Assembly: GCA_030694935.1 (NCBI GenBank)
Contig: JAUYUA010000032.1
Span: forward strand, 1 to 40,867
Reading direction: 5' to 3'
Source: Lutibacter sp.
Lineage (GTDB): Bacteria > Bacteroidota > Bacteroidia > Flavobacteriales > Flavobacteriaceae
Length of the DNA stretch: 40,867 bases
Positions 4,080 to 27,061 of the stretch are shown piece after piece. Both the position numbers and the translations under genes were made by a program. The notes below the pieces were generated by a model. It saw nothing but the letters and a program-made list of their open reading frames with translations. It did no database searches and had not been told where the DNA came from. Every line of letters starts with the position of its first letter. The first letter of the stretch is position 1.

Positions 4080-5444
4080 TTATTTGTCAATTTTCACGTT
4101 CAATAGTGCTAAATTTTCGTGGGCAATGGTAAATCCATCGATGTGATTTTTATGTTTAATAAAATTTATAAACTGAATAAAAACGAGCATTGTCAAAGGC
4201 AAAATTGCGATCCATAAGAACATTAAATCCCAAGTCAAATTTTCTTTTAAGGACCCTAAAAGTCCGGCACCCCAAGCTCTGCCCATATTGGAAAGTGCCA
4301 TAAATAAGGTGAATTGTGTTGCGGCAACCGTACTCCAGCACAGTTGCATACAAATAGCAAATACGGCAATACAAAGAAATGTATAACCCGCATAATACGC
4401 CAAAATGAAAATATAGACCATCAAATCATTATGCCACAAAGAGGGTAAAAACGCAAAACTTGTTAAGGTGAGTATCAGAAAAATAAGATAGATAGACAAC
4501 ATTCTTCTTTTTCCAAAAAAATCGACCAATGCACCACCTACAAATAAGCCAAGAAAACCACCAAATATGGTGCTTGCAGAATAAACTTCGGAATAAGAAG
4601 TATTTGTCCAGCCCAATTCCTGAATGGTAAAAACCGGTAACAAAGTGTCCATCAAACCAAACATAATTCCAATAATAAAAGTTGCAATCCCCATAATTAT
4701 GCTTGAAGGAAGCACAACCACTTTTAAAGTACTTCTTAAAATTTGGCTCCAGCTTTCCAATTGCACGGTTTTGGAAGCAATTGACGCCTCACCTTTTGTC
4801 CAGGGCATGAGTTTTTCTCCGGGCCGCTCTCTAAAACATATTGGAACCAACATAATTAGCATAACTGATATAGACAAAGAAGCTACCGCGATCGAAAATC
4901 CGATGAGATTAATTAATGTGGTGCCAACAATTAAAGACAAGGCGGTGCCAATGGTTTTTGAGCCCCACATTATACCGTTGGCCCTTGCTTGTTCACTTGG
5001 CGGGACAACATCTATGGCCATTCCGTCAGTAGCAACATCCTGAAATGCTCCAAAAAAGCTGATAAAAAATCCTGAAATCATCAATCCAGTTAAATTATTA
5101 AGCGGATCATTCACAAAGGCAATGCTTAAAAAACTTAAGATCAAACCCATCTGACCAAGAATTACCCAAGGTCTTTTTCTTCCCATCGATAAAATGGTAT
5201 AGCGATCCATCAATGGCGCCACAATTATTTTAAAACTCCAAGGAATCCCAATTACTGCAACAAAGCTGCCTATTTCCATAGGTGTTTTTCCATTCATTGC
5301 CAACCAGGCCGGAATGGCAAAATAGGTGATGCCTTCCGGAATGCCTTGCGCTATATAAAGAGCCGAAAAATTCAAATACCTTAGCACGGTGTTCTCTGTT
5401 AAAAACAGGTTGCTTTTTTCCATAAATGCTTTTGCGCGTTTCAT
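4080..5444 (-). CDS. MFS transporter, AmpG/PAT-like
   Basis: This 454-residue protein has roughly twelve hydrophobic segments. The conserved loop after the second segment, APLMDRY followed by GRKRPW, is characteristic of AmpG and related peptide/acetyl-CoA transporter (PAT) MFS members. AmpG imports anhydro-muropeptides from the periplasm; other relatives carry siderophores, acetyl-CoA or small peptides, so the cargo is not certain. It sits between a secreted peptidase gene and an exported M19 dipeptidase gene with gaps of 21 and 22 bases, which implies one transcript and a peptide or muropeptide cargo. An alternative start at Met8 is possible; the first ATG was kept because no signal decides between them. 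Confidence 0.85.
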   Translation of the reverse strand: MKRAKAFMEKSNLFLTENTVLRYLNFSALYIAQGIPEGITYFAIPAWLAMNGKTPMEIGSFVAVIGIPWSFKIIVAPLMDRYTILSMGRKRPWVILGQMGLILSFLSIAFVNDPLNNLTGLMISGFFISFFGAFQDVATDGMAIDVVPPSEQARANGIMWGSKTIGTALSLIVGTTLINLIGFSIAVASLSISVMLIMLVPICFRERPGEKLMPWTKGEASIASKTVQLESWSQILRSTLKVVVLPSSIIMGIATFIIGIMFGLMDTLLPVFTIQELGWTNTSYSEVYSASTIFGGFLGLFVGGALVDFFGKRRMLSIYLIFLILTLTSFAFLPSLWHNDLMVYIFILAYYAGYTFLCIAVFAICMQLCWSTVAATQFTLFMALSNMGRAWGAGLLGSLKENLTWDLMFLWIAILPLTMLVFIQFINFIKHKNHIDGFTIAHENLALLNVKIDK

Positions 5445-5466: not shown

Positions 5467-6648
5467 TTATTTTGATTTATTTTTTGATTCATTCGCTTTT
5501 AAAACCCTTAAAAAATTACCGCCCAAAATTTTAGTGATGTCCTTTTTACTGTAGCCTTTTTCAATCAAAGCTTTTGTAATGAGTGGATAATTAGTAACAT
5601 CATCCAGCTCTTGCGGCGGTGATTGAATTCCATCGAAGTCGGAACCAATACCAACATAATCTGCTCCAACCAATTTTATAATGTACTCAATATTGTCTAT
5701 TAATACTGATAATGGAACTCTAAATGGCTCGACTTCATTTTTATATTTATTAAATAAAAAATCTTCTGATTGGAATTCATTCATACCATCTGCAGTTAAT
5801 GATTCCTCTTCAGTGGAATGTTTCGCAAAAAAGTCAGTCACTTTTTTGATATAATTATTATCCAAAAAAGCGGAATAAAAATTCATCTGAATAACGCCGC
5901 CATTTTTAGCGATGGCTTTAATTTGTTCGTCGTTTAAATTGCGTTGGTGCTGGCACAAAGCATAAACCGCGCTGTGCGAGGCAATGATTGGTTTTGTGGT
6001 GGTATTGATCACATCCCAAAAAGTTTGTACGCCAACGTGAGAAATATCCACCATCATTCCCAATGCATTCATTTTTTGAACCACTTGTTTTCCAAAATCC
6101 GATAAACCGCTTTTTGTTATGTCATTGTTGAAGGTTTCATCATAAGCACTTGATGCCCAATCCGTTGAATTGTTCCACGTAAGCGTCATATATCTGGCAC
6201 CCCGATTGTAAAATATTTCCAATTTATCCAAATCATTTTCAATCATATGTCCGCCTTCCACCCCAAACATTGCGGCTATTTTTTTTTGATTTACGACTTT
6301 AAGCAATGCTTTGCGGTTGGCAACTTTAACAATTTTATCCGGATTTCGTTTTACCACAGCATCCAAAGAATCCATTTGTTGATTGGCATAAGCGTAAGGA
6401 TTTACCTGAGTACCGTCGCAAAACACCGAAAAGAGCTGCAAATCAACGCCTCCTTTTTTTAATCTTGATAAATCACTGTGGGTTTTTCCTGTTAAATCAG
6501 TATCTAATGCAAAGCCATTATCCACTATTTTCATCAAAATATCGTTGTGCGTATCTATCAAAATAGCTTTATCATGTAATTTCTGATAAGACTGAGCAAA
6601 GAATTGCTGTGCAAATAATATGCTGATGATTAAAATTTTTACTTTCAT
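5467..6648 (-). CDS. Exported membrane dipeptidase (peptidase M19, renal dipeptidase family)
   Basis: The 393-residue protein starts with a signal peptide ending at about FFAQS. The zinc ligands of M19 metallopeptidases are all present: His34 and Asp36 in DTHND, Glu131 in GVEGGH, His204 in DISHVG and His225 in ASHSAVY. A GIGSDFDG motif lies near the C-terminus. M19 enzymes split dipeptides and often accept a D-residue at the C-terminal position, relevant to both nutrient dipeptides and cell-wall fragments. It is 22 bases upstream of the AmpG-like transporter gene and 28 bases after the cytochrome c gene. Length and motif order are normal. Confidence 0.93.
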   Translation of the reverse strand: MKVKILIISILFAQQFFAQSYQKLHDKAILIDTHNDILMKIVDNGFALDTDLTGKTHSDLSRLKKGGVDLQLFSVFCDGTQVNPYAYANQQMDSLDAVVKRNPDKIVKVANRKALLKVVNQKKIAAMFGVEGGHMIENDLDKLEIFYNRGARYMTLTWNNSTDWASSAYDETFNNDITKSGLSDFGKQVVQKMNALGMMVDISHVGVQTFWDVINTTTKPIIASHSAVYALCQHQRNLNDEQIKAIAKNGGVIQMNFYSAFLDNNYIKKVTDFFAKHSTEEESLTADGMNEFQSEDFLFNKYKNEVEPFRVPLSVLIDNIEYIIKLVGADYVGIGSDFDGIQSPPQELDDVTNYPLITKALIEKGYSKKDITKILGGNFLRVLKANESKNKSK

Positions 6649-6676: not shown

Positions 6677-7273
6677 TTACAAACCTGTTGGCGGAATAGG
6701 ATTGGGAACTATGTTTTTTATTGGCTTAACAGTTTTAAAATATTCAAACATCGCTCGTAAATCACTATCTGTTAAATTTTTAAAATTTTGCCAAGGCATT
6801 GGCGGTAATAACATCCTTTGATCTTTAATACCTTTAAATTTACCTTCTCTTAGTGCCGTTTTAAAATTATCAAAAGTCCAATTACCCATTCCTGTTTCAT
6901 CGGGTGTTAAATTTGCGGCGAATGATACACCCCAAGGCCCAACAAAAGCTGTTAAACTATTGTTCATAAAAATCCATTTGCCCGGACCAATATTATTTTT
7001 ATCTATTTTGTATAAAGTTTCATCACTTGGATGACCGCTAAAACGCCTGTCTAAATCGGGAACTGGACCTTGAGGTGTCATTTTCTTTGGAGAATGGCAG
7101 TCATCACAACCTATCGCATTGACCAAATATGAACCCCTTGCAACTAATTCTTGAAGGGTATCAATACTTTTATACTGTTCATTTTGATTTATTCCAACTG
7201 TCTTTTTGTCTTTGCAATTTGATAAAAGTATAAGAGCCACAAAACAGCAACTGTAAAAAATTATTTTTTTCAT
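6677..7273 (-). CDS. Lipoprotein c-type cytochrome, single haem
   Basis: The 198-residue product has a lipoprotein signal with lipobox LLSNC (Cys20). One haem-binding CxxCH is present at residues 56-60 (CDDCH). LPPMPWQN near residue 156 supplies the likely axial methionine (about Met159). The order GCDDCHSPK, FSGHP, LTPDE and LPPMPW is that of small monohaem cytochromes that pass electrons in periplasmic dehydrogenase chains. No dehydrogenase or oxidase is encoded beside it; the next gene downstream, 28 bases away, is the M19 dipeptidase. Its redox partner is therefore unknown, and the operon link to the peptidases is positional only. Confidence 0.9.
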   Translation of the reverse strand: MKKIIFYSCCFVALILLSNCKDKKTVGINQNEQYKSIDTLQELVARGSYLVNAIGCDDCHSPKKMTPQGPVPDLDRRFSGHPSDETLYKIDKNNIGPGKWIFMNNSLTAFVGPWGVSFAANLTPDETGMGNWTFDNFKTALREGKFKGIKDQRMLLPPMPWQNFKNLTDSDLRAMFEYFKTVKPIKNIVPNPIPPTGL

Positions 7274-7337: not shown

Positions 7338-7787
7338 TTATTCACCAACGCTGTTCACTTCAATCCAATAGCCGTCAGGATCCTGAAAATATATTTGTTT
7401 AATTCCGTCTGCGCGAATGCTTATTTTATTTTGGGTTCCAGGCCAATCAGAATAATTGATTTTCTTTGCTTCCAATGTTTTGATATAGGTATCGTAATTA
7501 GAAGTTGTCAATGCAAAATGCACAGCTTTATTGGTGGAAACAGGTTCTTTCAAAATGGAAACAAGGTGTAATTCTTTTCGTTCTCCAAAAGAAAACCAAC
7601 GAATACCTTCCATTTTTGTGCGATTGGTGATTTCCTTCAACTGTAACACATCTTTGTAGAAAATAGCAGATTTATCGACGTCTTTTACCGATAATGCGAT
7701 GTGATTAAAAGTTAATTGGCTAGTTTCCTGTGCTTGAAGCATTCCGAAAAAAGTAAGAAAAATAAGAAGTAATGTTGGTTTTATCAT
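7338..7787 (-). CDS. Exported VOC-superfamily (glyoxalase-like) protein
   Basis: Translation from the ATG at 7787 gives 149 residues beginning with a clean signal peptide (MIKPTLLLIFLTFFGMLQAQ). The longer frame from 7826 adds 13 residues that would spoil it, so the inner start is preferred. The body has the betaalphabetabetabeta pattern of the vicinal oxygen chelate fold: LTFNHIALSV at the start, ELHLVS in the middle and DGYWIEVN at the end, with potential metal ligands His and Glu. Most VOC enzymes are cytoplasmic, so an exported copy is notable, though exported ones occur in Bacteroidetes. Catalytic activity cannot be inferred. It lies 64 bases upstream of the cytochrome gene. Confidence 0.8.
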   Translation of the reverse strand: MIKPTLLLIFLTFFGMLQAQETSQLTFNHIALSVKDVDKSAIFYKDVLQLKEITNRTKMEGIRWFSFGERKELHLVSILKEPVSTNKAVHFALTTSNYDTYIKTLEAKKINYSDWPGTQNKISIRADGIKQIYFQDPDGYWIEVNSVGE

Positions 7788-7907
7788 TAGAATAATTTTA
7801 TTTACAAATAGGATTTTCCAGTTCAACAGTTCAAAATCCCTAAAATATTTAACAGCTCATTATATTAGCGGAAATTCTTTTTTAAGAAAATAAATTGCTT
7901 TTATACT

Positions 7908-7933
7908 GAGGGAGCATTTCAAAATACTCCCTC
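7908..7933 (-). terminator. Hairpin after the DUF4440 lipoprotein gene
   Basis: Arms GAGGGAG (7908-7914) and CTCCCTC (7927-7933) pair perfectly, and the stem extends inward through a G.U pair. It begins 19 bases after the stop codon at 7952. No T-run follows on the minus strand, so it could be a weak terminator or an mRNA 3'-end stabiliser. Confidence 0.45.
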
Positions 7934-7951
7934 TGGATAAAATCTTTTAAA

Positions 7952-8479
7952 CTATTTTACTATTGCGTCAGTATTGTAAATATCCCTTATGCATATATAT
8001 TTCCCGTCACGCTTTTCCCAGATAGCCATATATTTACCTGTTCTGACAACTTTGCCTGATGCATCTTTTGATATGGCGGTGCCAATCTCAGTGACTGTGT
8101 TTCCATCACCAAATACCTCAAGCGTCTCATAAGCAACGGTTTCTCCTTGGGTTCTTTTTGCAAGACTTTGTTCTGTATCCTTTTGAATAGCAGCTTTTCC
8201 CACTATCATCGGAGCATTATTGGACATGCTAATTGCATCATCCGAATAAAATGCGGCAATGGCATTTGCATTGCGGGCATTGTCAGCTGTAGCCCAGTCA
8301 TTTTCCAAGGCTTGAATCTCAGCTTTTATAGTGGCCATATCAGCTTTAGCGACTACAGGTTCTGCCGTTATAGCTGGTTCCATTTCAGTTTTTTTATCGG
8401 GTTGTGAGTTACACCCAAAAGCGAAAATGGAAATTGCAAGGCCCAGGATTGCAAGTTTAAAATTGTTCTGATTGTTCAT
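7952..8479 (-). CDS. NTF2-like lipoprotein (DUF4440/SnoaL-like)
   Basis: The 175-residue product has a lipoprotein signal with lipobox FAFGC and then a charged linker. The domain from about residue 48 reads as a DUF4440/ketosteroid-isomerase-like cone: IQALENDWATADNARNANAI, FYSDDAI, then WEKRDGKYICIRDIYN at the end. These folds bind or isomerise small hydrophobic molecules, but many secreted members have no known activity. It stands alone, with 140 bases upstream and 164 downstream, and a hairpin follows its stop. It is one of four NTF2-like exported proteins between 7952 and 11852. Confidence 0.8.
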   Translation of the reverse strand: MNNQNNFKLAILGLAISIFAFGCNSQPDKKTEMEPAITAEPVVAKADMATIKAEIQALENDWATADNARNANAIAAFYSDDAISMSNNAPMIVGKAAIQKDTEQSLAKRTQGETVAYETLEVFGDGNTVTEIGTAISKDASGKVVRTGKYMAIWEKRDGKYICIRDIYNTDAIVK

Positions 8480-8619: not shown

Positions 8620-9255
8620 TTATTTACCAAAGGCATCCGCAAGTTGCTTGGTATCAACGTATTGTTGAAAACTGATAACTTTACCATCTTTCAGTGTCCA
8701 AAGATGGGCAGCCTGAGTATTGTACTCTGCTCCGTTTTTCTTCAATTTGGCTTTGTATCTTAAAGTGGCGAGTACATGGTTGTTAGACATTTCATGGAGT
8801 TTTATATCGGTCAGACTAAAATATTCGTGCTCAGCGCCAATGCGGGCAAAAACACCATTTAATACCGCATCTGGCCCGATGTAAGGATTGCCATCGGCAT
8901 AATTGTTTCCTTCGGCTTCGTTCCAAACAATTTTAGCATCCATTACCCCAAGAACCGATGGAATATCGCCCACAGCGAATGCTTTGTAAGCACTATCAAT
9001 TACACTTAAATTAGAAGGTGTTTCAAAATTTACATCTGTATCTTTTGCAGGAATATCAAAAAGATAGTCTGCATCACCATCCATAAATATTCCGTGTTTG
9101 GTTATTTTATAACCTTGTCCGTACAAATAATCAGAAGTGATTTGTGTATTGTAATCAAAAGACGCATATATTATTTTTGCATTATCTTGACTTATTCCAT
9201 TGCTGGCAAAAGCAAAGAAAAACAGCATTGCGAAATAAATTTTTATAGTTTTCAT
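8620..9255 (-). CDS. Exported SnoaL-like (NTF2 fold) protein
   Basis: The 211-residue product has a standard signal peptide ending near SNGISQD. About 65 residues of unassigned N-terminal sequence precede a SnoaL-like domain with VIDSAYKAFAVGDIPSVLG, the acidic strand AKIVWNEAEG, and a final ALHLW-like strand (AAHLWTLKDGKV). SnoaL-like proteins are related to polyketide cyclases and limonene-epoxide hydrolases, but the catalytic acid and base are not assignable here. It is separated from the six-gene operon by a strong inverted-repeat terminator, so it likely has its own promoter; no clear TAnnTTTG box was seen in the 148 bases upstream. Confidence 0.8.
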   Translation of the reverse strand: MKTIKIYFAMLFFFAFASNGISQDNAKIIYASFDYNTQITSDYLYGQGYKITKHGIFMDGDADYLFDIPAKDTDVNFETPSNLSVIDSAYKAFAVGDIPSVLGVMDAKIVWNEAEGNNYADGNPYIGPDAVLNGVFARIGAEHEYFSLTDIKLHEMSNNHVLATLRYKAKLKKNGAEYNTQAAHLWTLKDGKVISFQQYVDTKQLADAFGK

Positions 9256-9318: not shown

Positions 9319-9375
9319 GAAATTCCTAAAAAAGAATTGGGGACTTGTAAATAGCATTCAATTTTTAGGAATTTC
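9319..9375 (-). terminator. 14-bp perfect inverted repeat ending the exported-fold operon
   Basis: The arms at 9319-9332 and 9362-9375 are perfect reverse complements (14 bp) around a 29-base loop. On the minus strand the stem runs directly into TTTTAATT. It begins 28 bases after the stop of the gene at 9404, which marks the probable end of the six-gene transcript. Confidence 0.7.
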
Positions 9376-9403: not shown

Positions 9404-10186
9404 TTAACGCACTTTTTTCACAAGCGTGGCCATATATTTATATTTCATATCACGTGTAGTCAATCCTTCCTGAATTTTTTTGATTTGGGCTTCAGTCAAT
9501 TCTGAACCATTTACAGAACCTCCATTAAATAATTGATTGTAATCTTTGTACATATCCGCAGTGATATGAGTTGCATAAACATCACTTCCTGTTGGAAGCA
9601 TATATCGCATCAAACCCCAATTCCCTCTCATTCCCGCATCAACTTCTTTTTGGGCAATAGGTTGAAATACTGCTGTTTCAAATTTTTCATAATTTTCAAA
9701 ATTTGCGTCAGATACTTTCATTAAATTTATTCCAGCTATGGTGCCTAACGGCATTTGGAAATTATCTTTTGTGGCAGCTATTTGTTCCAGATAAATACGA
9801 TGCGCCAAGTCTCTTGATTTTGATGTGCTCATAAATTTTTTATCAAGTTCCGCTTGCGTCATTTTTGGATAGGCGGCTTTTAAGGCTTCCTCAAAATTTC
9901 CGGCGCTGCTCATCATTTTTACCGGATCATTATACAACGTTACCGTTAAATATTGAAATCCTTGCGCTTCGCCGCCAGGTTGTAAACTCCATAAATCCCA
10001 GCCGATGATATCCCCATTTTTGGTGCGTTGTTCCTGTATTTTTTCCCAAAAAGTCTCCGTTTCCATATAAGCTTGCTCTTGCTCATTGTCCACTTTCATA
10101 AATTCAAATATTAAATAAAGTTTGTCTTGAGCAACAACACTATTGCCTAACAGTATTATTGCGATTAGCATCAGTAATTTTTTCAT
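9404..10186 (-). CDS. Exported protein with two ferredoxin-like (ABM/DABB-type) repeats
   Basis: The 260-residue product begins with a signal peptide cleaved near NSVVAQD. The mature part appears to hold two halves of about 110 residues, each with a strand, an amphipathic helix and further strands as in dimeric alpha-beta barrels. The first half opens with LYLIFEFMKVDNEQEQAYM and has a FQYLTVTLYND strand; the second opens with GTIAGINLMKVSDANFENY and has a YATHITADMY strand. Single-domain relatives include antibiotic-biosynthesis monooxygenases and EthD proteins, which bind small aromatic molecules without a cofactor. The fold call is my inference from strand/helix pattern. It is last in the operon, 47 bases after the preceding gene. 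Confidence 0.65.
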   Translation of the reverse strand: MKKLLMLIAIILLGNSVVAQDKLYLIFEFMKVDNEQEQAYMETETFWEKIQEQRTKNGDIIGWDLWSLQPGGEAQGFQYLTVTLYNDPVKMMSSAGNFEEALKAAYPKMTQAELDKKFMSTSKSRDLAHRIYLEQIAATKDNFQMPLGTIAGINLMKVSDANFENYEKFETAVFQPIAQKEVDAGMRGNWGLMRYMLPTGSDVYATHITADMYKDYNQLFNGGSVNGSELTEAQIKKIQEGLTTRDMKYKYMATLVKKVR

Positions 10187-10233
10187 AATTTTTAATATTT
10201 AGTTAGTCTATTTGCTTTTTTATGATTCAAAAA

Positions 10234-10746
10234 TTATTTTGTTTCTGATTCAACAGCCATTTTTGCGGATTCAATTTCCTGAATTGCCAAAACAATGGGC
10301 GCATTGTCCCAATAACCATATTCCCTTACAATTTTTCCATCTATAAATTGGGCCGTTAAATGAACAGGTATTTCAAGCACTTTATTATTGGCCGACAAGG
10401 TGCCTTTCCAAACGCCCCAAAAGTTGACCCAGGTTTTTCCTTCATCTGTGATAGCCATTTCATATTCCTGGCCTTTTTCCACAAATCCTCTTGCTGAAAA
10501 TACAGTTTCGTTATTTTGATGATATTCCGGTATTTTCTTTGCGCTCATTGGTGTGCTGGTATTAAAAAACACATTTGCGGTGTCTGCATAACGAGTCAAC
10601 AAAGATTCCCACTTTTGATCGCTGTAATCTTTTATTCCTGCTTTGTAGCTTTCAATCTCTTTAGATTGTTGTGTGTAGCGTTCAGGTTTTGTGTCACACG
10701 CTGTAAAAAGAACTATTGCAAGTCCGAATAAAAATAGATTTTTCAT
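10234..10746 (-). CDS. NTF2-like lipoprotein, paralogue of the gene at 11331
   Basis: The 170-residue lipoprotein has lipobox LFTAC. It shares the following with the protein at 11331-11852: RYTQ near the mature N-terminus, KWESL, the TDxGxTWVNFWGxWxGxL block, EIPVH and FIDGKIV followed by GYWD. The last block is the typical C-terminal strand pair of SnoaL-like/NTF2 folds. The two paralogues flank the cupin gene, which suggests local duplication around or before cupin insertion. Gaps are 50 bases upstream and 47 downstream. Function is unknown; ligand binding at the outer surface or periplasmic face is a reasonable guess. Confidence 0.8.
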   Translation of the reverse strand: MKNLFLFGLAIVLFTACDTKPERYTQQSKEIESYKAGIKDYSDQKWESLLTRYADTANVFFNTSTPMSAKKIPEYHQNNETVFSARGFVEKGQEYEMAITDEGKTWVNFWGVWKGTLSANNKVLEIPVHLTAQFIDGKIVREYGYWDNAPIVLAIQEIESAKMAVESETK

Positions 10747-10796
10747 AAGTTTTGTTTTTTAGTTAGTAATTTGGTTTTTAATGTTTTGGTAATAAT

Positions 10797-11273
10797 TTAG
10801 TTTTTCATCTCTACCCTAATCAGGCGAATGGTAATTGTTGTACTCAAATTTTCTACAGAATGAGGCGCTTCCGGGTCTTTCCACATAGTCATCGGAAAAG
10901 TGAGAGGCGTTTTTAATTGCCTGGTATCCAATATGATTTTTCCTTTTTCATCAAAATCTATAAAATCGCCTGCTTCCTGAATATAAAGCACACTTGGCCA
11001 ACGATGGTGGTGAATTTCTTCTGTTTCACCGGGTGCAAGCGTAACTTCCAAAACCCTAACTTGATCGTTTTCCAATAAGATTTTATGGTTTTTTGGCGCT
11101 GCAATAACGGCATCTAAATTTGCTGACCAATAGTCTGGCTCGTCCCAATAATGCGGATCCACAGAATTATAGGCAAAAGACTTGTCTAAATTTTTTTCTT
11201 TTTCCTGGCTGAAAGTTGCACTGATTGAAATGGAAAAAATTAAGAGTGATACGTATGTTTTTAAATTTTTCAT
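10797..11273 (-). CDS. Exported cupin-domain protein
   Basis: The 158-residue product begins with a signal peptide ending at about SATFSQE. A single cupin domain covers roughly residues 60-155. Cupin motif 1 is visible as a histidine cluster (EEIHHHRWPSVLYI) followed by GDFIDFD; the second motif is less clear but contains PHSVENLS, giving the expected late histidine. Cupins bind a metal or a small ligand and include dioxygenases, isomerases and sugar-binding sensors; this one cannot be assigned further. It lies between two NTF2-like paralogues. A 9-bp hairpin lies in the upstream gap and ends 14 bases before its ATG. Confidence 0.85.
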   Translation of the reverse strand: MKNLKTYVSLLIFSISISATFSQEKEKNLDKSFAYNSVDPHYWDEPDYWSANLDAVIAAPKNHKILLENDQVRVLEVTLAPGETEEIHHHRWPSVLYIQEAGDFIDFDEKGKIILDTRQLKTPLTFPMTMWKDPEAPHSVENLSTTITIRLIRVEMKN

Positions 11274-11286
11274 ATATATTTTTTTA

Positions 11287-11319
11287 GCCTGTCCATTCCT
11301 AAAAGTAGTTTGGACAGGC
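11287..11319 (-). other. Intercistronic hairpin before the cupin gene
   Basis: Arms GCCTGTCCA (11287-11295) and TGGACAGGC (11311-11319) are perfect complements with a 15-base loop. On the minus strand the stem is followed by an A-run and then the cupin ATG, not by T residues, so it is not a standard terminator. RNA processing or translation control are possible roles. Confidence 0.6.
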
Positions 11320-11330
11320 AGTTGATTTAA

Positions 11331-11852
11331 TTATTCTTTTGTTTCAATTGAAGTTTCTGTTGGAGCAGATTCCTTCAGTTTCTGCAAATCCAGCGCTAAA
11401 GCTGAAATATCCCAATAGCCAACTTCTTTAACAATTTTTCCGTCAATAAATCGGCTCGTAATATGAACTGGGATTTCATACAATTGGTTATTTGCCGTTA
11501 GTCTTCCCTGCCACAATCCCCAAAAATTTACCCAGGTTTCTCCTTTATCCGTTACCACCATTTCATATTCAGATTCTTCACGGACATATTTCCAAGACGA
11601 AAAAATTGTGGCGTCTTGTTTGTTTTGAGCTATCATCTGAGCTAAGGACTGGGCATTTTTCTCGGTTACATTATTTAAAATTTTGGCAGTATCGGAATAA
11701 TGGGTTGCCAAAGATTCCCAATTGCCAATTTCATAATCCTTAATAACCTTTTTGTATATATCAATCTCGGGTGAATTTTGGGTATAGCGCACTTCGTTTT
11801 TACAGGATGTTATAAATGCAATTAGCATCGCAATAAGCAATATTTTTTTCAT
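11331..11852 (-). CDS. NTF2-like lipoprotein, paralogue of the gene at 10234
   Basis: Starting at the ATG at 11852 gives a 173-residue lipoprotein with lipobox FITSC; the longer frame from 11891 adds 13 residues without signal character and crosses a hairpin, so it is rejected. It is clearly related to the protein at 10234-10746 through RYTQ, NWESL, TDKGETWVNFWG, ANN, EIPVH and FIDGKIV. The C-terminal strands fit a SnoaL-like/NTF2 cone. It lies 57 bases upstream of the cupin gene and 77 bases downstream of the tandem ferredoxin-like gene. No catalytic residues can be named. Confidence 0.8.
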   Translation of the reverse strand: MKKILLIAMLIAFITSCKNEVRYTQNSPEIDIYKKVIKDYEIGNWESLATHYSDTAKILNNVTEKNAQSLAQMIAQNKQDATIFSSWKYVREESEYEMVVTDKGETWVNFWGLWQGRLTANNQLYEIPVHITSRFIDGKIVKEVGYWDISALALDLQKLKESAPTETSIETKE

Positions 11853-11871
11853 TCGTTTTGATTTTTTTAAA

Positions 11872-11903
11872 TCCGGGCATGACCATATCAAATCACACCC
11901 GAA
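11872..11903 (-). other. Intercistronic hairpin before the NTF2-like gene
   Basis: Arms 11872-11881 and 11894-11903 pair over 10 bases with two G.U pairs in the minus-strand RNA and a 12-base loop. Like the hairpin at 11287-11319 it is followed on the minus strand by an A-run and then an ATG (11852). Confidence 0.45.
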
Positions 11904-11929
11904 TTTGGCTTAGTTAGTAGCTAAGTTGA

Positions 11930-12694
11930 TTATTTTTTTGATGCTGAATAAGATAAATCTGGACGCATTCCACCTGATTTGCTTTCATACTTATCAACAT
12001 ATTTAAACATATCTTCAAATAATTTCTTTCCTTCTTCACCTAATAAAGCATCATTTTCATCACTTTGACGGACATAGTCTTGGGCATCTTTGGCCGATAC
12101 TACCGCTAAGAAATAATCGCCCATAGTTCCAAATCCGGCACGATAAATTCTAAAATGTTCTTTAGCGCCTTTTTTCTCATATAGCGCTTTTAGCTCTTTT
12201 ATTTTTTCTCTTAAATTTTGAACATTTTCAGGTGTAACATATAAAAAATGCCATTTACGATAGTTTTTTCCTTCAGTATTAATGGTAAGGCCATTTGGCA
12301 TATAGGAAAGTTCATTGCTTAAAACCACAATATAATCACCGTGCTTGTCGTAACATTTATTAAAGCGATCAAAAATGGCCCTAAAATTTTCATTTCCCAT
12401 TTTTTCTGCCAATGGAGCCAACGCATTTTTATCCAAATCGGCCATATTTTTTATGGGCGTTATGCTTAAATAAGTGCCATCATCTATTTGGGCAGTTGTC
12501 CAATCGGCATCTTTTAAATCGTGTTTTTTGCAAGCTGCAATAAAATCTTTGGACACTTTTTCATATTCGCCTGTCATAGACGGTTTTACTTGATCGTTAT
12601 GAATCCAAAAAGCTTGGTTTCCTTGTGCGTTTGAAATAATTGGCATCAGCAAAAGTGTTATTGCCAATAGCGATGTTGTTTTTAGTGTTTTCAT
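11930..12694 (-). CDS. Exported protein with two ferredoxin-like (ABM/DABB-type) repeats
   Basis: The 254-residue product has a signal peptide ending near IISNAQG. Two similar halves can be traced: the first from FWIHNDQVKPSMTGEYEKV with strand TYLSITPIKN, the second from YRKWHFLYVTPENVQNLREKI with strand DYFLAVVSAKD. This matches a duplicated alpha-beta barrel subunit such that one chain could form the usual dimeric barrel. Sequence identity to the other two tandem proteins in the operon is low, so the relation rests on pattern. It is second in the operon, only 14 bases after the first gene, which argues for coupled expression. Confidence 0.65.
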   Translation of the reverse strand: MKTLKTTSLLAITLLLMPIISNAQGNQAFWIHNDQVKPSMTGEYEKVSKDFIAACKKHDLKDADWTTAQIDDGTYLSITPIKNMADLDKNALAPLAEKMGNENFRAIFDRFNKCYDKHGDYIVVLSNELSYMPNGLTINTEGKNYRKWHFLYVTPENVQNLREKIKELKALYEKKGAKEHFRIYRAGFGTMGDYFLAVVSAKDAQDYVRQSDENDALLGEEGKKLFEDMFKYVDKYESKSGGMRPDLSYSASKK

Positions 12695-12708
12695 GATAAT
12701 TATATTTT

Positions 12709-13428
12709 TTAATTGCTTAATTCTTCATTTAGGGAGTATAAATATGACCAGGAATTTTCAACAGCGGATCTCACTTTTGCTCGCAACTCAACTGTTTTTT
12801 TCAACCCATGTTTATTTTCATATACTTTCCAAACCCCATCTTTTTTAATATCTAAATCTGCAAAGCCTTTATAAGGCGTTGAAACCATATAATCAGGGGA
12901 ATCAGGTCCGCCACCTACAAATGAATACCAAGTGCCACGAGGAGAACCTTCAACTGATCTAACTGTTGAGGTTATTTCTTTTATCGCTTCATTATATGCG
13001 GCATCATTAGTCACTCTAACAAACAACACCGAAACCAATTTTGTGCCTTCCGCAGGAGTTCTGCTTAATTCTGGCATTGTACGCGCAATGTTGTAATTTA
13101 CTTTTTCAACGTGCGGCATAATAAAATCAAGCACTTTCATGTGGCACTCTTTTCCTGCTGCATCTTCTTTGTCCATTTCAGCCCAATTGTCCATTAAGCC
13201 AGTTAAAACATACATTATTCCTTCACCTTGCACACGTCTCCAAACATTAAATTTGTCGGTCCCCTTTTTTTCCAAATAACATTCTTTCCACATTTTTACG
13301 CCAGCAATAAATTGTGATTCGTGGCCTGGTTTAACCGTAATCTCACTCATATTCAAAAGTTTGCTGCCGTCGTTTTGTGATAGTGCAAGCATTGGCAAAA
13401 GCATTGCCAGTAATAGTAATTTTTTCAT
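12709..13428 (-). CDS. Exported protein with two ferredoxin-like (ABM/DABB-type) repeats
   Basis: The 239-residue product has a signal peptide ending at about MLALSQN. The first half opens with NMSEITVKPGHESQFIAGV, the classic start of antibiotic-biosynthesis-monooxygenase and related barrels (strand, PGH turn, helix), followed by IMYVLTGLMDNWAEM. The second half opens with KLVSVLFVRVTNDAAYNEAI and has a strand around DYMVSTPYKGFADL. It is first in the operon, downstream of the HTCS gene; the 158-base gap holds the candidate promoter and operator. The fold is an inference from pattern; no enzyme activity is claimed. Confidence 0.7.
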   Translation of the reverse strand: MKKLLLLAMLLPMLALSQNDGSKLLNMSEITVKPGHESQFIAGVKMWKECYLEKKGTDKFNVWRRVQGEGIMYVLTGLMDNWAEMDKEDAAGKECHMKVLDFIMPHVEKVNYNIARTMPELSRTPAEGTKLVSVLFVRVTNDAAYNEAIKEITSTVRSVEGSPRGTWYSFVGGGPDSPDYMVSTPYKGFADLDIKKDGVWKVYENKHGLKKTVELRAKVRSAVENSWSYLYSLNEELSN

Positions 13429-13458
13429 AATTTTAATTATTTAATTAGTTAGATGTTC

Positions 13459-13466
13459 CAAAACTA
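13459..13466 (-). promoter_or_regulatory. Candidate -7 box for the exported-fold operon
   Basis: TAGTTTTG on the minus strand matches the Bacteroidetes -7 consensus TAnnTTTG exactly and lies 31 bases upstream of the ATG at 13428. No TTTG -33 element is present at the usual distance. That would fit an activator-dependent promoter, and a direct repeat sits just upstream (13496-13527). Confidence 0.5.
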
Positions 13467-13495
13467 AGCAGTTAACATCAAGAAAAATTGCACAA

Positions 13496-13527
13496 TTATC
13501 GCAAAAACATGGACTTTTATGGCAAAA
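13496..13527 (-). promoter_or_regulatory. Candidate HTCS operator: 11-bp direct repeat, 21-bp period
   Basis: Minus-strand TTTTGCGATAA (13506-13496) and TTTTGCCATAA (13527-13517) match at 10 of 11 positions and start exactly 21 bp apart, two helical turns. AraC-family DNA-binding domains recognise direct half-sites with about this spacing, as in araI1/araI2. The nearer copy lies 29 bp upstream of the -7 box, covering the -33 region. The gene immediately upstream encodes an HTCS with a C-terminal AraC domain. Binding is inferred. Confidence 0.45.
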
Positions 13528-13586
13528 GGGATGGTTTAAACACTTTAATTTACAAATTGTAAATTGGCGCTAGATTTTTGTTATGA

Positions 13587-16500
13587 TTAACGGGATATAT
13601 GGCTCTTTTTATAAGCGGAAGGACTGCAGCCAAACTGATTTTTGAAAGCTCTTGAAAAATAAGTTTGGTCGCTAAAACCTGTCTGAAAACAAATATCAGC
13701 CAAGGTTCCTGCATTTTTTTTGATTAAATCTGCTGCGCGTTGCAATCGAATGTTACGGATTAATTGGCCCGGCGCCTGATCGATAAGCGCTTGAAGTTTA
13801 CGGTGTAATTGCGACGGACTTAAACACATTTTATCGGCAAGTTGCTCCACACCAAAACTGGTGTTTTCAATATGGTCTTTTATGTGTTGAATGGCTTTTT
13901 CCAAAAACTGTTGGTCAACCGATGCCAACGGAATTTCATCGGCGGTAACAACAAATTTATTTTGGTATTTTTTAAGAAGCTGCTCTCTTTGCTGAATGAG
14001 ATTATTGATGATTATTTGAAGTTCTTTTACGCTAAATGGCTTTGTTAAATAAGCTTCAATACCGGTTTCCAATCCCGCAAGCCTGTCTTCTTGAGCGGCT
14101 TTTCCTGTTAAAATAACAATTGGAATGTGGCTGGTTTTTTCCTCGTTTCTTAATAAGTGCACCATAGAAATTCCATCTATTTCAGGCATCATTACATCGG
14201 TGATAATGACATCCGGAATGGCTTTTTTTGCTTGTTCAAATCCTTCTTCACCATTAGATGCTTCAATCACTTTGTAGGTTGGTTGCAATATATTTTTGAT
14301 AAAAGTTCGAATAGCCAAGTTATCTTCCACCAACACAATAATTTTTTTATCGAAGTTTATTTCAGGTATTTGAAGCTTTTTGGTTTGATGGGATTTTAAA
14401 CCAGAAGGTGTTTGGGTTTTTATTTCAATCTCCGATTCATTCATTATTTCAGAAACAGCGCCTACTGGAATTTCTATGGAAAAAGTCGTTCCTTTTTGAC
14501 CGGTTAATTTTTCATTTCTGAAAGCGTTGACAGTTCCATCGTGCAATTCCACCAATTCCTTTACCAAAGCCAGTCCAATACCGGTTCCTTCATACAAACG
14601 GGTATCTGAATTATCAACCTGATAAAACCGGTCAAAAATGTTGGAAATGGCATCCAACTCAATCCCAATGCCATTATCGCAAAGGCAAATGGACAGAAAT
14701 TCTTTATCTTTTCTTTGGATTGTTAAGGTGATTTCTCCGTTTTCGGGTGTGAATTTTAAGGCATTTGACAAAATATTCATCATAATTTTTTCCATTTTCT
14801 CCTCATCAAAAACCGCTTGAATATCGGTTTCATCTGAAACAAAATTCAAAGAAATATGCCTTTTTTCTGAAAAAGATTCTACTGAAAAAAATAGATTTTT
14901 GAGAAATAATACCATATTTTGCTGAGAAAGTTTTAAGGTCATTTTTCCTGCTTCCAATTTTGAAATATCCAGCAATTCATTGATTAGTTTTAAAAGTGTT
15001 TTCGCATTTTGATTGATGCCTTCTGCTTGTTTTTTTATATAATTTGTTGGCATTGCTTCCACTAAATTTTCGGCATAACCGCTAATTAATGTTAATGGTG
15101 TTCTAAATTCGTGGGAAATATTGGCGAAAAAACGCGATTTTAATTGGTCTAAAGCCTTCAACGTATGGTACTCTTTTTGTTCAAGTTCCAAATCGTTTTT
15201 CATTTTAATTCGCTTCATTTCATACCTTCTAATAAAATAGAGCAGCAATATAAAAAGCAATAAATAAAGGGTGATTGCCATCCAAGTTCCCGACCAATGC
15301 GGCAAAACCCTGAACGGAATTGAAATTCCCTCTTCATTCCAAACCCCGTCATTGTTGCTGCCTTTTACTTTTAAGGTGTAATTTCCGGAAGGCAAATGGG
15401 TAAACGTTGCCGTTCTTGCATTTTCTAAATAAATCCAGTTTTCATTAAAATTTTCAAGCTTGTACGCATATTTATTTTTGCTGGGTGATGAAAAATCGAG
15501 TGCCGCAAATTCAAATATGATGATTTCATCATTTGGCGTAAAAGTGATATTTTCGTTTCGATTGATGGGTATTTCTTTAATTTCTGCAATCTCATTCTTT
15601 TTTTTGCTTTGGCTATAAACTTTTATACTGGTAATGCTCATTAAAGGCTGAAACGGATTGTCATTTATTTGATCGGGAAAGAAATAATTGAGTCCGTTAA
15701 TGCCGCCAAAAAACAATTCCCCTTTTGAACTTTTAAAATTGGCACCCGTATTAAACTCATTGCTTTGCAAGCCGTCTTCCACATCAAAATTTCTGAATTT
15801 TTTTGTTTTCATATTGTATTTTGAAATTCCCTTATTGGTGCTTAGCCAAAGATTATCTTGCGAATCTGAAGAAATTCCATAAATCACATTGTTGGGCAAT
15901 CCCTCTTTTTGGGTGAAATGAGAAAATGACTGTTTACTGATATCAAATAAATTTAATCCGCCGGAAGTTCCAATCCACAAAAAAACATCAGGCTTTAAAG
16001 GATCAGGAAATATGGCATTTACCTGATTGTTGCTTAGGCTGTTTGGTATTTCAGGATTGTTTTGGTAACCGTAAAAAAGTTCTTTGTTTTTATCAAAAAC
16101 CAGCAAACCGTTTTTGGTTCCCAACCACAATTGGTTTTTGCCGTCTTCATAAATAACACAGCGATTTGTGAAATTATTCTTCGGATTGTCAGCCAACTTA
16201 TAATGTTTAAATATGCCTTTTTCCCTATCTGTCATTTTACTCAGATAGTTTTCGGAGACGATCCATATCATTTCATTTTTATCCTCAAAAACTGCTGAAA
16301 CTCCTTTACGCTGAATTTCATCAGGTTTTTTTTGATCATTTTTAAATTGTTTTGATATTTCTGTTTTTGGATTGTAAACAAACAATCCTTCTGTTGAGGC
16401 AAACCATAATTTACCATCTTTCGATTTAATCATTGACCAAACGCTTGTATTGCCAAAAGCGTTCAAATTTGTTGAGCTTGTTTCAAAACTCTTAAGATCA

Positions 16501-17717
16501 ACGGTTTTTCGATCCCAACGATAAAGCACATCTGCACTAATCCAGACATACCGTTCACTTTCTTCTAAAACCGATCGAACACTGAAACCTGTGACTCTTG
16601 AATTTGTTGCTATTTTTCGCTTTAACATTCCAAACCTATTGGCTTTTGGATCGTAATAATCGATTCCCATGCCGCTTGTGCCAATCCACAAAATATTTGT
16701 CCGGTCTATAAACAAGCTTGAAAGGCTGTTATAACTAATTGATTCCGGTTTTAAAGGGTCGTTTTTAACCGACTCATAATTCAAGGTTTTTGTGTTAAAT
16801 CGCATTAATTCTCCGGGTGTTGCAAGCCATAAAACACCTTGCTTGTCTTGGGCAATTTCATTAATTTCTCCCCAACCATATCTAAAAATGTTTAAATGAT
16901 GCGGAAAAAATTTAAAAGAATTGTCAATGGTATTAAAATCAACCAAACCACTTCGTGTACCAAGCCAAAGATTATTATTGTCTCCTTTGCTGATGGCAGA
17001 AATTGAAAAGTCACTGTCGCTTCCCGGAGCATTTGGATGTTTGATGTCAAAATAGATAGACATAATCAATTCGGATTTTGGATCCATTCTGTTTAAACCT
17101 TTGTCGGTTCCAATCCAAATAATGCCATCATCATCAATCAATATTTTTTTTATAATGTTGCTGCAGAGCGGATATTTTCCTGATTTATCTAGGTGATATT
17201 GTTTAATTTCATTGGCCTTGTACGTTTGATTTAAAAAAGGGATTCTAAAAACACCGTTGCCAATTGTTCCAATCCAAATATTGCCGGCTTTATCTTGGGC
17301 TATCGAACTAATAGCTTCAGAATTTTTACTTTTTGTTTTGGTTATGGAAAGCTTAATTCTTTGGAATGATTGGGTTTCCGCATTGTAAATATTCACAATT
17401 CCGTCTTCAGTACCAATCCATAATTTTCCATTCTTGTCTGTGAACAATTCGGAAATATAATTGGATGAAATAGAATTTGGATTGTTGGGTTCGTTTTGAA
17501 AAACAATGAATCGGTATCCGTCGTATTTATTTAACCCGTCTTTGGTTCCAAACCACATAAAACCTTCCTGGTCTTGGGTTATTGATAATACAAGATTTTG
17601 AGACAACCCATTGTTGTTGGTCAGGTGTTTAAATCTAATATCTTGGGCAAGGCTTTTTAAAGGAAAAACATTCCAAATAATTAAAATTACGGCAATTTTT
17701 TTAATCAATTGATTCAT
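13587..17717 (-). CDS. Hybrid two-component system regulator (HTCS), one-protein sensor to AraC output
   Basis: This protein of about 1376 residues contains a full signalling chain. Residues 1-25 form a signal/anchor. Residues about 30-720 hold beta-propeller repeats of the Reg_prop type (recurring WIGT, WFGT and WLGT motifs), then a Y_Y_Y domain near 740-815 and a membrane helix at about 825-845. The kinase has its phospho-His near 870 (HEFRTPLTLISG), an N box (NILSNALKFT) and G boxes (DNGIGIEL, GTGIGLAL). The receiver carries VEDN and phospho-Asp about 1175 (ITDVMMPEIDG). An AraC helix-turn-helix fills 1270-1375. HTCS proteins bind a periplasmic ligand, usually an oligosaccharide, and activate nearby genes. 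No SusC/D genes are adjacent; the likely target is the downstream six-gene operon. ATG at 17717 is preferred over GTG at 17720. Confidence 0.95.
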   Translation of the reverse strand: MNQLIKKIAVILIIWNVFPLKSLAQDIRFKHLTNNNGLSQNLVLSITQDQEGFMWFGTKDGLNKYDGYRFIVFQNEPNNPNSISSNYISELFTDKNGKLWIGTEDGIVNIYNAETQSFQRIKLSITKTKSKNSEAISSIAQDKAGNIWIGTIGNGVFRIPFLNQTYKANEIKQYHLDKSGKYPLCSNIIKKILIDDDGIIWIGTDKGLNRMDPKSELIMSIYFDIKHPNAPGSDSDFSISAISKGDNNNLWLGTRSGLVDFNTIDNSFKFFPHHLNIFRYGWGEINEIAQDKQGVLWLATPGELMRFNTKTLNYESVKNDPLKPESISYNSLSSLFIDRTNILWIGTSGMGIDYYDPKANRFGMLKRKIATNSRVTGFSVRSVLEESERYVWISADVLYRWDRKTVDLKSFETSSTNLNAFGNTSVWSMIKSKDGKLWFASTEGLFVYNPKTEISKQFKNDQKKPDEIQRKGVSAVFEDKNEMIWIVSENYLSKMTDREKGIFKHYKLADNPKNNFTNRCVIYEDGKNQLWLGTKNGLLVFDKNKELFYGYQNNPEIPNSLSNNQVNAIFPDPLKPDVFLWIGTSGGLNLFDISKQSFSHFTQKEGLPNNVIYGISSDSQDNLWLSTNKGISKYNMKTKKFRNFDVEDGLQSNEFNTGANFKSSKGELFFGGINGLNYFFPDQINDNPFQPLMSITSIKVYSQSKKKNEIAEIKEIPINRNENITFTPNDEIIIFEFAALDFSSPSKNKYAYKLENFNENWIYLENARTATFTHLPSGNYTLKVKGSNNDGVWNEEGISIPFRVLPHWSGTWMAITLYLLLFILLLYFIRRYEMKRIKMKNDLELEQKEYHTLKALDQLKSRFFANISHEFRTPLTLISGYAENLVEAMPTNYIKKQAEGINQNAKTLLKLINELLDISKLEAGKMTLKLSQQNMVLFLKNLFFSVESFSEKRHISLNFVSDETDIQAVFDEEKMEKIMMNILSNALKFTPENGEITLTIQRKDKEFLSICLCDNGIGIELDAISNIFDRFYQVDNSDTRLYEGTGIGLALVKELVELHDGTVNAFRNEKLTGQKGTTFSIEIPVGAVSEIMNESEIEIKTQTPSGLKSHQTKKLQIPEINFDKKIIVLVEDNLAIRTFIKNILQPTYKVIEASNGEEGFEQAKKAIPDVIITDVMMPEIDGISMVHLLRNEEKTSHIPIVILTGKAAQEDRLAGLETGIEAYLTKPFSVKELQIIINNLIQQREQLLKKYQNKFVVTADEIPLASVDQQFLEKAIQHIKDHIENTSFGVEQLADKMCLSPSQLHRKLQALIDQAPGQLIRNIRLQRAADLIKKNAGTLADICFQTGFSDQTYFSRAFKNQFGCSPSAYKKSHISR

Positions 17718-17720
17718 CAC

Positions 17721-18096: not shown

Positions 18097-18936
18097 ATGT
18101 ATAAAAGAGTATTATTGCATATGCGAAATAAAATATTATATACGGTTTTATTTTTACTTTCAATTCAAGGTTTTTCCCAAGAAATTAAAAGTAAAGATAC
18201 CCTGAAACAGCGTTCGATTTTGGTAACATTAAGAGGCCAGATTATTGATAATTCCAGTAAATTACCTCTAGTTGGCGCCCATTTATTCAATTTAAACTCA
18301 GTTATTGGAACAATTTCCAATAATAAAGGAATGTTTGAACTTGCAACAGCCGTAAATGATACTATTTATGTTTCTTATTTGGGATTTCAATCCATAAAAT
18401 TAAAAATCACCAACGATTTACTGAAAGGAAATGAGTTGGTGATTGAATTGTACGAAAGAACAGAAGCAATGGACGAAATTGTGGTAAGCTCCCATAAACT
18501 CATCGGTGTTTTAGAAATTGACGCCAAAAATGTTCCTAAAGATAAATATGCGCGTATACATATTAATGGTTTACCTCAAACGTATGAAGTTGGCACCAGA
18601 CAGCGCAAAGAATTTAATTCACCCATTGATGCACTTTTTAGGCCGATAGATTATGTTTACAATATGTTCGGGAAAAGTCCGGCCCAATTAAAAAAGCTAA
18701 AGAAACTTAAAGACGATGACAACCTAAGAAATATGTTGGAAGCCAAGTTTAACCGGGAATTGTTGATGGAATATTTAGGAATGACTGCCGAAGAATTGAA
18801 TGAATTGTTAAACGAATGCAACTATTCGGACTATTTTATAAAATCTGCCAGCGATTTACAGCTTATTGAAGCGGTTTTGCTTTGTTATGAAAATCACAAA
18901 GCCATTAAAAAAGGAAGCACAATTAAGGAAAAATAA
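18097..18936 (+). CDS. Exported protein with carboxypeptidase-regulatory-like (CarbopepD_reg) domain
   Basis: The frame codes for 279 residues. A second ATG at 18121 begins a tidy signal peptide ending in QGFSQE, and a -7-like TATCTTTA overlaps the first ATG, so the shorter 271-residue form is at least as likely. Residues about 45-110 form a CarbopepD_reg-like beta sandwich (LRGQIIDNSSKLPLVGAHLF, then GTISNNKGMFEL and VSYLGFQS), the domain that also precedes TonB-dependent receptor plugs. No plug or barrel follows. The C-terminal 120 residues are charged and helical (EYLGMTAEELNELLNE) and unassigned. Such stand-alone proteins are common in Flavobacteriaceae with unknown role. Confidence 0.8.
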   Translation: MYKRVLLHMRNKILYTVLFLLSIQGFSQEIKSKDTLKQRSILVTLRGQIIDNSSKLPLVGAHLFNLNSVIGTISNNKGMFELATAVNDTIYVSYLGFQSIKLKITNDLLKGNELVIELYERTEAMDEIVVSSHKLIGVLEIDAKNVPKDKYARIHINGLPQTYEVGTRQRKEFNSPIDALFRPIDYVYNMFGKSPAQLKKLKKLKDDDNLRNMLEAKFNRELLMEYLGMTAEELNELLNECNYSDYFIKSASDLQLIEAVLLCYENHKAIKKGSTIKEK

Positions 18937-27021: not shown

Positions 27022-27048
27022 AATAGTAATTTTTAATAATGATTTATG

Positions 27049-27056
27049 CAAAGATA
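27049..27056 (-). promoter_or_regulatory. -7 box for the HD-lpx operon
   Basis: Minus-strand TATCTTTG matches TAnnTTTG exactly. It lies between the divergent HD and porX starts and decides the HD start: the ATG at 27078 would be upstream of transcription. No good TTTG -33 element is seen. Confidence 0.6.
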
Positions 27057-27061
27057 ACAAT

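Follow-up and report, generated by a model that had tools for sequence, protein, structure and literature searches.

The first 40,867 bases of contig JAUYUA010000032.1 of a Lutibacter sp. genome (assembly GCA_030694935.1; 3.2 Mb), here called the window (contig bases 1-40867), encode a hybrid two-component system (HTCS) regulator followed by six genes, which we name F1, F2, N1, CUP, N2 and F3. A conserved direct repeat with a 21-bp period, newly described here, lies in the gap between HTCS and F1 and is the predicted operator of this regulator. Our reading of the locus as a whole, in which we have moderate confidence, is that a one-target HTCS regulon, formed by the exchange of one regulator for another, would control a cassette of exported proteins acting on a small molecule. 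The comparative evidence for the predicted regulatory part is fairly strong. The arrangement described in the first-pass annotation of this DNA, an HTCS gene followed by six co-directional genes, is confirmed, with all seven genes on the minus strand at the following positions:

13587..17720, minus strand: HTCS, with signal peptide, two-component propeller, Y_Y_Y, histidine kinase, receiver and AraC-type DNA-binding domain (Pfam); the listed open reading frame (ORF) begins with GTG at 17720, and an ATG stands one codon on
13489..13525, minus strand: predicted HTCS operator, a direct repeat with a 21-bp period in the HTCS-F1 gap
13459..13466, minus strand: TAGTTTTG box, a -7-like promoter element of the Bacteroidota type, conserved in the aligned spacers, 22 bp after the repeat
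12709..13428, minus strand: F1, predicted exported (signal peptide by eye), F2 homologue
11930..12694, minus strand: F2, predicted exported, tandem ferredoxin-like
11331..11852, minus strand: N1, predicted NTF2-like lipoprotein (listed ORF from TTG at 11891, ATG at 11852; lipobox ITSC)
10797..11273, minus strand: CUP, predicted exported, cupin-like
10234..10746, minus strand: N2, predicted NTF2-like lipoprotein (lipobox FTAC)
9404..10186, minus strand: F3, predicted exported, tandem ferredoxin-like

The Pfam domains of HTCS are Reg_prop, Y_Y_Y, HisKA, HATPase_c, Response_reg and HTH_18, and the protein is thus predicted to join a periplasmic sensor, a histidine kinase, a receiver and an AraC-type domain in one chain, the architecture that defines HTCS regulators. 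The nearest solved sensor is PDB entry 4a2l (sequence match, E 1.6e-105), which we take to be BT4663, and the sensor is also related to 3v9f; we assume that it belongs to the COG3292 sensor type.

Alignment of eight HTCS-F1 spacers revealed a conserved block, which in the window consists of TTTTGCCATAAAAGTCCA and TTTTGCGATAATTGTGCA as a direct repeat ending 60 bp before the F1 start codon. The block is conserved in nine distinct HTCS-F1 or HTCS-F2 spacers. At loci L265 and L293, which are one genome by content, F2 directly follows HTCS and the same block precedes F2. Compared with itself, each of the nine distinct sequences of the block matches best when shifted by 21 (0.61-0.83); at no other shift between 15 and 27 does the match exceed 0.5. 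PMC3878776 reports a direct-repeat form for every HTCS motif that it predicts, the sites lying 21 bp apart on average, and the putative operator has this published form.

The full operator pattern has a single match in the window and none in 100 shuffles. Allowing up to three mismatches, we found one match in each of nine of the 38 genomes of the genus and none in the other 29; the reversed control pattern matched once, in G205. Orthologues of HTCS occur in 9 of the 38 genomes, and HTCS and site occur together in eight (hypergeometric 1.6e-6, without corrections for two exceptions: G213, which has HTCS and an N gap at the junction, and G230, which has the site on a contig that begins inside HTCS). 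This describes a conserved HTCS locus with a single predicted target per genome.

In total, 11 HTCS loci were found (the window, G203, G209, G212, G213, G216, G226, G228, G230, G231 and L204), of which G226, G230 and L204 are cut by contig ends and G203 is joined by inference from two contigs, one with the sensor and the other with the HTCS C-terminus, the operator and F1. The gene after HTCS is F1 at 10 of the 11 loci and a broken F2 at G209. Because the repeat before F1 is conserved, there is one site per genome, and F1 or F2 follows HTCS at 11 of 11 loci, direct control of the F1 operon by HTCS is likely. This supports the earlier proposal that HTCS serves the operon, within limits: HTCS is not a family-wide partner of these genes, as described below.

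Gene calls in relatives are our own longest-ORF calls rather than annotation. The six genes stand in the same order in five genomes, all within the HTCS-bearing group, and four of the five have an extra ORF: a 169-aa ORF before N2 in G231 and G213, a 160-aa ORF before F3 in G216, and an SDR gene before CUP in G228 (loci L161 and L207), that is, within the unit. In G203 and G212, N1 comes directly after F1 with F2 missing between them, and an SDR gene lies behind N1 in G212 (L294). Among the best 80 of 116 confirmed GTDB matches, a set of loci that leans to close relatives, the closest loci are in Lutibacter, and F2 is 98% identical in Lutibacter sp. C10_metabat.bin.20. The F2 copy behind HTCS in G209 (L293:4276-5034) and in L265 is broken by internal stops; HTCS, the operator and the later genes are kept. 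Loci with F2 of Flavobacteriaceae type also occur in records titled Bacteroidales, Deltaproteobacteria and Chlorobiota (L204, L269 and L273), and these bins are probably mislabelled or contaminated.

Across 199 genomes of the family Flavobacteriaceae (198 genera), F2 was detected in 61, F1 in 24 and F3 in 31 (seven strongly), with the window's own genome counted in each. The 63 F2 neighbourhoods outside the window comprise 28 at rsmD-dnaX without a regulator, 22 with a LytTR response regulator and/or a TPR/HisKA_2 histidine kinase within four genes, and 13 others. An HTCS orthologue at 60% identity or more was found in none of the 63, and we therefore discarded the idea that HTCS and the six genes form a block throughout the family. 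At the level of the family the genes do scatter without HTCS, the outcome that the first-pass annotation had set against its own proposal; within the HTCS-bearing group they do not. One NTF2-like family is present in 35 of the 63 clustered neighbourhoods. F2, mostly with an NTF2-like neighbour, is fixed between rsmD and dnaX in 28 neighbourhoods (e.g., L046 and L069). F1-type units in other genera (L170-L184) often adjoin uvrB, sucC, lysA and variable cargo, as if at a preferred cassette site; unlike these, the HTCS cassette of the window lies near sucD.

A second operator block precedes the first gene in three regulator-headed groups. It reads TTCGGACA-N13-TTCGTCC, also with a 21-base period, and has 61 matches in 3.75 Mb of fetched loci against none for the reversed control. 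The matches fall in 54 of 90 loci with the LytTR-type regulator, 3 of 63 other loci, 0 of 33 rsmD loci and 0 of 15 HTCS loci, counts in which the samples overlap and some loci had served to derive the pattern. Several genomes, judged by content, are shared between the family sample and the GTDB loci (L159/L203, L160/L208, L161/L207, L162/L205 and L293/L265), so that these locus counts are not independent. A longer pattern, TTNGGACA-N13-TTCRTCCTA, has 25 exact matches in 22 of the 199 family genomes, and all 22 are among the 39 genomes with the regulator at E 1e-60 (5e-19); its reversed control matched in three of the 199. Each of the 25 sites stands 59-307 bp before an ORF. The first such ORF is F2 in five cases, F4 in three, F1 and EPI in two each, F3, N22, N2 and ABH in one each, and unlabelled in nine, of which three have N1, F2 or EPI next. 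The site before ABH (L351) links the LytTR regulon to a member of the downstream gene group of the window. At L344 and L346, an operator of the LytTR type stands before genes for similar, unlabelled exported proteins of about 475 aa. An F, N or EPI gene lies no more than four genes away in 36 of the 40 regulator loci taken from the family sample, a number in which G189 counts twice; many of these loci had been fetched because of such a gene.

The LytTR regulator and its TPR/HisKA_2 kinase thus resemble HTCS in heading the same gene families and in having an operator with a 21-bp period, which is their own. They differ in that the window's genome has no regulator orthologue at E 1e-60 and no match to the LytTR operator, and the window has none even at two mismatches. 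By these sequence searches, the genome would not belong to the LytTR/TPR-kinase regulon. The two systems are connected by the F2 tree (93 rows). Its seven HTCS rows form one group (SH-like approximate likelihood ratio test, SH-aLRT, 94), which sits inside a 66-row clade (99) that otherwise holds 56 regulator-linked rows and three others; 20 rsmD-dnaX rows form a separate group (87). The tree leaves out rows outside 220-300 residues, among them L265 with its broken F2, and takes in 13 of the family sample's 28 rsmD-dnaX neighbourhoods; L206, whose contig begins inside HTCS, was labelled HTCS by hand. Because the HTCS group is nested in the LytTR-linked F2 clade, regulator and operator were probably exchanged once, toward the HTCS-headed cassette. 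G047 (L036 and L250), of the same genus, has kept the LytTR pair, together with F4, F2, N1, SDR, VOC, SGN and MBOAT genes.

Several points weigh against this reading. The HTCS pattern was derived from loci that it later matched, so the co-occurrence is partly circular; the lack of any second operator site is not. Only the window shows the six genes in exact order with no additional ORF, and F2 with NTF2-like neighbours stands at rsmD-dnaX without any regulator in 28 of 63 neighbourhoods. No exact match to the longer LytTR pattern occurs in 17 of the 39 regulator-positive genomes, and either the pattern is too strict or the control is not universal. In the F2 tree, the regulator-linked rows L273 and L274 lie outside the main clade, near the rsmD-dnaX group, and the tree itself comes from a quick search with a midpoint root, from which the direction of exchange is deduced.

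The six products had been described as exported tandem ferredoxin-like, NTF2-like and cupin folds, and this holds to different degrees. F2 is predicted by AlphaFold2 as two ferredoxin-like repeats (predicted local distance difference test, pLDDT, 92.5), and its nearest solved folds are sulfur oxygenase reductases, the anthrone oxidase-like 5f9p, PenE 9kdp and 2pgc, at about 7-13% identity. For F3, a single one of the five models, the best (82.0), has the tandem fold, the other four scoring 41.6-49.0; its best Foldseek matches are 2pgc and 3mcs, and a profile self-comparison indicates an internal duplication (96.7). F1 is an F2 homologue by profile comparison only (hhalign probability 95.7), and its own self-repeat is weak (32.2). 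The models thus assign F2, and with lower confidence F3, to a tandem form of the dimeric alpha/beta barrel of the antibiotic biosynthesis monooxygenase (ABM) type, for which 5f9p, 9kdp, 2pgc and 3gn6 are the comparators. By sequence none of F1, F2 and F3 would be placed in the Pfam ABM family (no match at E 1), none has a Pfam family above its cut-off, and PDB sequence searches with their profiles returned nothing below E 0.1. Ten columns are invariant in 75 F2 sequences, including H32, D34, Y115, Y131 and R146, and these would fit a shared pocket as candidate residues.

The Pfam matches of the other three genes all fall below the curated cut-offs: SnoaL for N1 (E 7.3e-5; 23.0 bits against 28.4), SnoaL for N2 (E 0.14; 12.4 bits against 28.4), which is 46% identical to N1, and Cupin_2 for CUP (E 0.027; 14.6 bits against 27.2), which we hence call cupin-like only. 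H88 and H90 of CUP are conserved across 11 sequences. None of the six genes is named at NCBIfam cut-offs. As to export, our script flagged lipoboxes in N1, N2 and the downstream products N4, CYT and ABH, and signal-peptidase-I-like sites in F2, CUP, F3 and the downstream VOC; F1, N3 and DPP were judged by eye, so that a signal peptide or lipobox on all six products is predicted partly by script and, for F1, by eye alone.

We take TAnnTTTG to be the consensus of the Bacteroidota -7 box, which the TAGTTTTG box before F1 resembles. No -33 box lies at the usual distance from it. A scan for TTG-N18-22-TANNTTTG gave four and five matches per strand, against 2.3 in plain base shuffles, and none at F1; a scan for sigma-70-type promoters was uninformative (57 found, 66.7 expected). 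A 9-bp palindrome at 13547-13565 was considered and rejected, as it is not kept in most orthologous spacers. Rfam (gathering threshold) and tRNA searches of the window gave no match. The inverted repeat that had been proposed to close the unit after F3 is present, fully complementary and almost unchanged in L203, L207 and L208. We rejected it as a certain end of the unit: a hairpin with longer arms follows N4, and a simple terminator scan listed neither (16 sites, 13.7 expected). Because of the hairpin after N4, the unit may extend to that gene, and N3 and N4 are a probable extension. After HTCS, the minus-strand order is F1, F2, N1, CUP, N2, F3, N3, N4, VOC, CYT, DPP, MFS, ABH, SGN, MBOAT, and the remaining features are:

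9319..9375, minus strand: 14-bp inverted repeat after F3 (arms 9319-9332 and 9362-9375, 29 nt between them), possible terminator
8620..9255, minus strand: N3, predicted exported (by eye) SnoaL_2 (NTF2-like) protein; SnoaL_2 29.7 bits against a cut-off of 27
7952..8479, minus strand: N4, predicted NTF2-like lipoprotein with lipobox; DUF4440 E 5.7e-14
7899..7942, minus strand: hairpin after N4, 21-nt arms, 86% complementary, stem kept in L203; possible terminator
7338..7787, minus strand: VOC (glyoxalase-fold) protein, predicted exported; Glyoxalase E 2.7e-11
6677..7273, minus strand: CYT, predicted cytochrome c lipoprotein; Cytochrom_C E 3.7e-6
5467..6648, minus strand: DPP, M19 membrane dipeptidase; Peptidase_M19 E 2.1e-108
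4080..5444, minus strand: MFS transporter, AmpG-like; MFS_1 E 4.5e-28; TIGR00901 E 6.8e-39, below cut-off
3018..4058, minus strand: ABH, proline-iminopeptidase-family hydrolase, predicted lipoprotein; TIGR01250 316.8 bits against a cut-off of 167.65
1959..2987, minus strand: SGN, no Pfam match; presumably SGNH-like, by position and recall only
541..1956, minus strand: MBOAT acyltransferase; MBOAT E 1.6e-28
18097..18936, plus strand: CarboxypepD_reg-like exported protein, divergent, flanking HTCS; CarbopepD_reg_2 E 6.6e-14

The VOC protein, two further NTF2-like proteins and cytochrome c that had been noted behind the unit are borne out by Pfam; unlike N1 and N2, both N3 (SnoaL_2) and N4 (DUF4440, SnoaL_2) pass the curated cut-offs. 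The CarboxypepD_reg-like gene is the divergent neighbour in 13 of 15 HTCS rows, the two exceptions being one genome, at a contig end.

Genes of these downstream types recur near F2. Within 10 genes of F2, the 22 regulator-linked neighbourhoods of the family sample include SDR in nine, O-methyltransferase in six, HGSNAT-like genes in five, SGN in three, and MFS and MBOAT in two each; the corresponding counts in 58 regulator-linked GTDB loci are 30, 16, 13, 5, 4 and 5. MFS, MBOAT and HGSNAT-like genes recur close to both F1 and F2 in relatives, and relatives of the window's MFS gene (50-71%) occur in 7 of the 17 loci L170-L186, which were fetched for F1. The downstream genes of the window are thus recurrent, yet far from constant partners. 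The absence of a transporter or cytosolic enzyme, claimed earlier, holds for the six genes; it does not fit the wider cassette, where MFS, SDR and acyltransferase genes recur. The functional unit thus reaches beyond the six genes and is more mosaic than they are, and HTCS is a regulator specific to one lineage.

We propose that the HTCS sensor would detect a periplasmic ligand, that the kinase would pass phosphate to its own receiver, and that the AraC-type domain would bind the repeat at 13489-13525, a site marked out by its conservation. Binding would activate the F1 promoter, and with it the downstream genes as far as the F3 hairpin or perhaps N4. The products, whose folds are supported in part, would be exported or anchored as lipoproteins and may there bind or transform one class of small molecule. 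Elsewhere in Flavobacteriaceae the same gene families would answer to a LytTR response regulator and TPR histidine kinase through another operator of 21-bp period, and in the Lutibacter-type lineage that regulator and operator would have been exchanged for the HTCS pair. The cassette stands under differing sensors, so the payload, not one particular sensor, appears to be what is kept, and the cassette would answer an extracytoplasmic cue. In our view, its response to such a signal would be to bind or transform a small molecule outside the cytoplasm. Folds of this kind in the company of O-methyltransferase and SDR recall aromatic polyketide tailoring; unlike in such tailoring, the core members here are predicted to be exported. 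It is a doubtful extension of our reading that an HTCS of the glycan-sensor type was re-purposed for a non-glycan small molecule and took the cassette from a LytTR system with a swapped operator, and that its exported tandem ferredoxin-like, NTF2-like and cupin-like proteins make up a pathway that works on aromatic or polyketide-like compounds outside the cytoplasm.

HTCS may sense an oligosaccharide as a cue for algal or plant matter. The exported proteins would then handle non-sugar components, phenolic or other, that come free with the glycan, and the genes for the glycan itself would be found at another place. We consider this possibility tentative yet a serious rival, given the kinship of the sensor to 4a2l and 3v9f and the statement in PMC3878776 that studied HTCSs with the common COG3292 sensor type bind oligosaccharides. 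The same statement speaks against an aromatic or polyketide-like ligand. MBOAT and esterase genes near such units would also suit a glycan cue. Against it, no SusC, SusD or glycoside hydrolase is among the Pfam matches of the window ORFs that were scanned (part of the ORFs), and the operator occurs once per genome, at F1, with none at distant glycan genes at up to three mismatches. The scanned ORFs therefore do not form a polysaccharide utilization locus, i.e., a susC/susD pair with glycan-active enzymes by the regulator; a 1051-aa outer-membrane protein at 32582-35737 matches OMP_b-brl_4. The Bacteroides HTCS regulators share domain architecture, sensor kinship and, by comparison with PMC3878776, the 21-bp direct-repeat operator with the regulator described here, which differs from them in these missing Sus and glycoside hydrolase genes and in having a single predicted target in each genome. 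Other HTCSs that lack susC/susD neighbours are on record: PMC3878776 counts 11 among the 36 of B. thetaiotaomicron.

A role of the cassette in envelope protection or detoxification, in which the sensors would respond to a hydrophobic molecule, toxic or signalling, that the exported proteins then bind or inactivate, would account for the many small exported binding folds, the nearby AmpG-like MFS, M19 dipeptidase and VOC genes, and the patchy distribution with swapped regulators. We think it rather unlikely, as no resistance-type family was found at its cut-off, the matches of VOC to fosfomycin enzymes are far below theirs, and no known class of efflux pump was found among the six genes. That HTCS and the six genes are mere neighbours, with the repeat belonging elsewhere and HTCS acting on distant genes, as PMC3878776 allows for HTCSs without susC/susD neighbours and as the occurrence of F1 and F2 without HTCS in many genera might suggest, is improbable given a repeat that lies 60 bp before F1, has no other match in the nine genomes, is found in no HTCS-less genome except G230 with its cut contig, and still precedes F2 when F1 is absent.

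The usual reading of HTCS regulators is that they sense glycans. The HTCS locus described here is conserved, has a precise predicted operator and showed no Sus genes next to it; with a single predicted target, the question of its ligand becomes directly testable. The locus also seems to offer a clear example of one regulator replacing another: two phosphorelay regulators of different kinds, with separate operators, head the same exported gene families. F1, F2 and F3, which have no Pfam assignment, are grouped into candidate regulons across Flavobacteriaceae, which gives a starting point for finding out what they do. Among the matches listed in our literature search, which covered few subscription journals, none deals with this cassette. 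Elsewhere in the window, at 26999-28609 on the plus strand, lies a response regulator with a PglZ domain, presumably the domain combination of PorX, which regulates type IX secretion.

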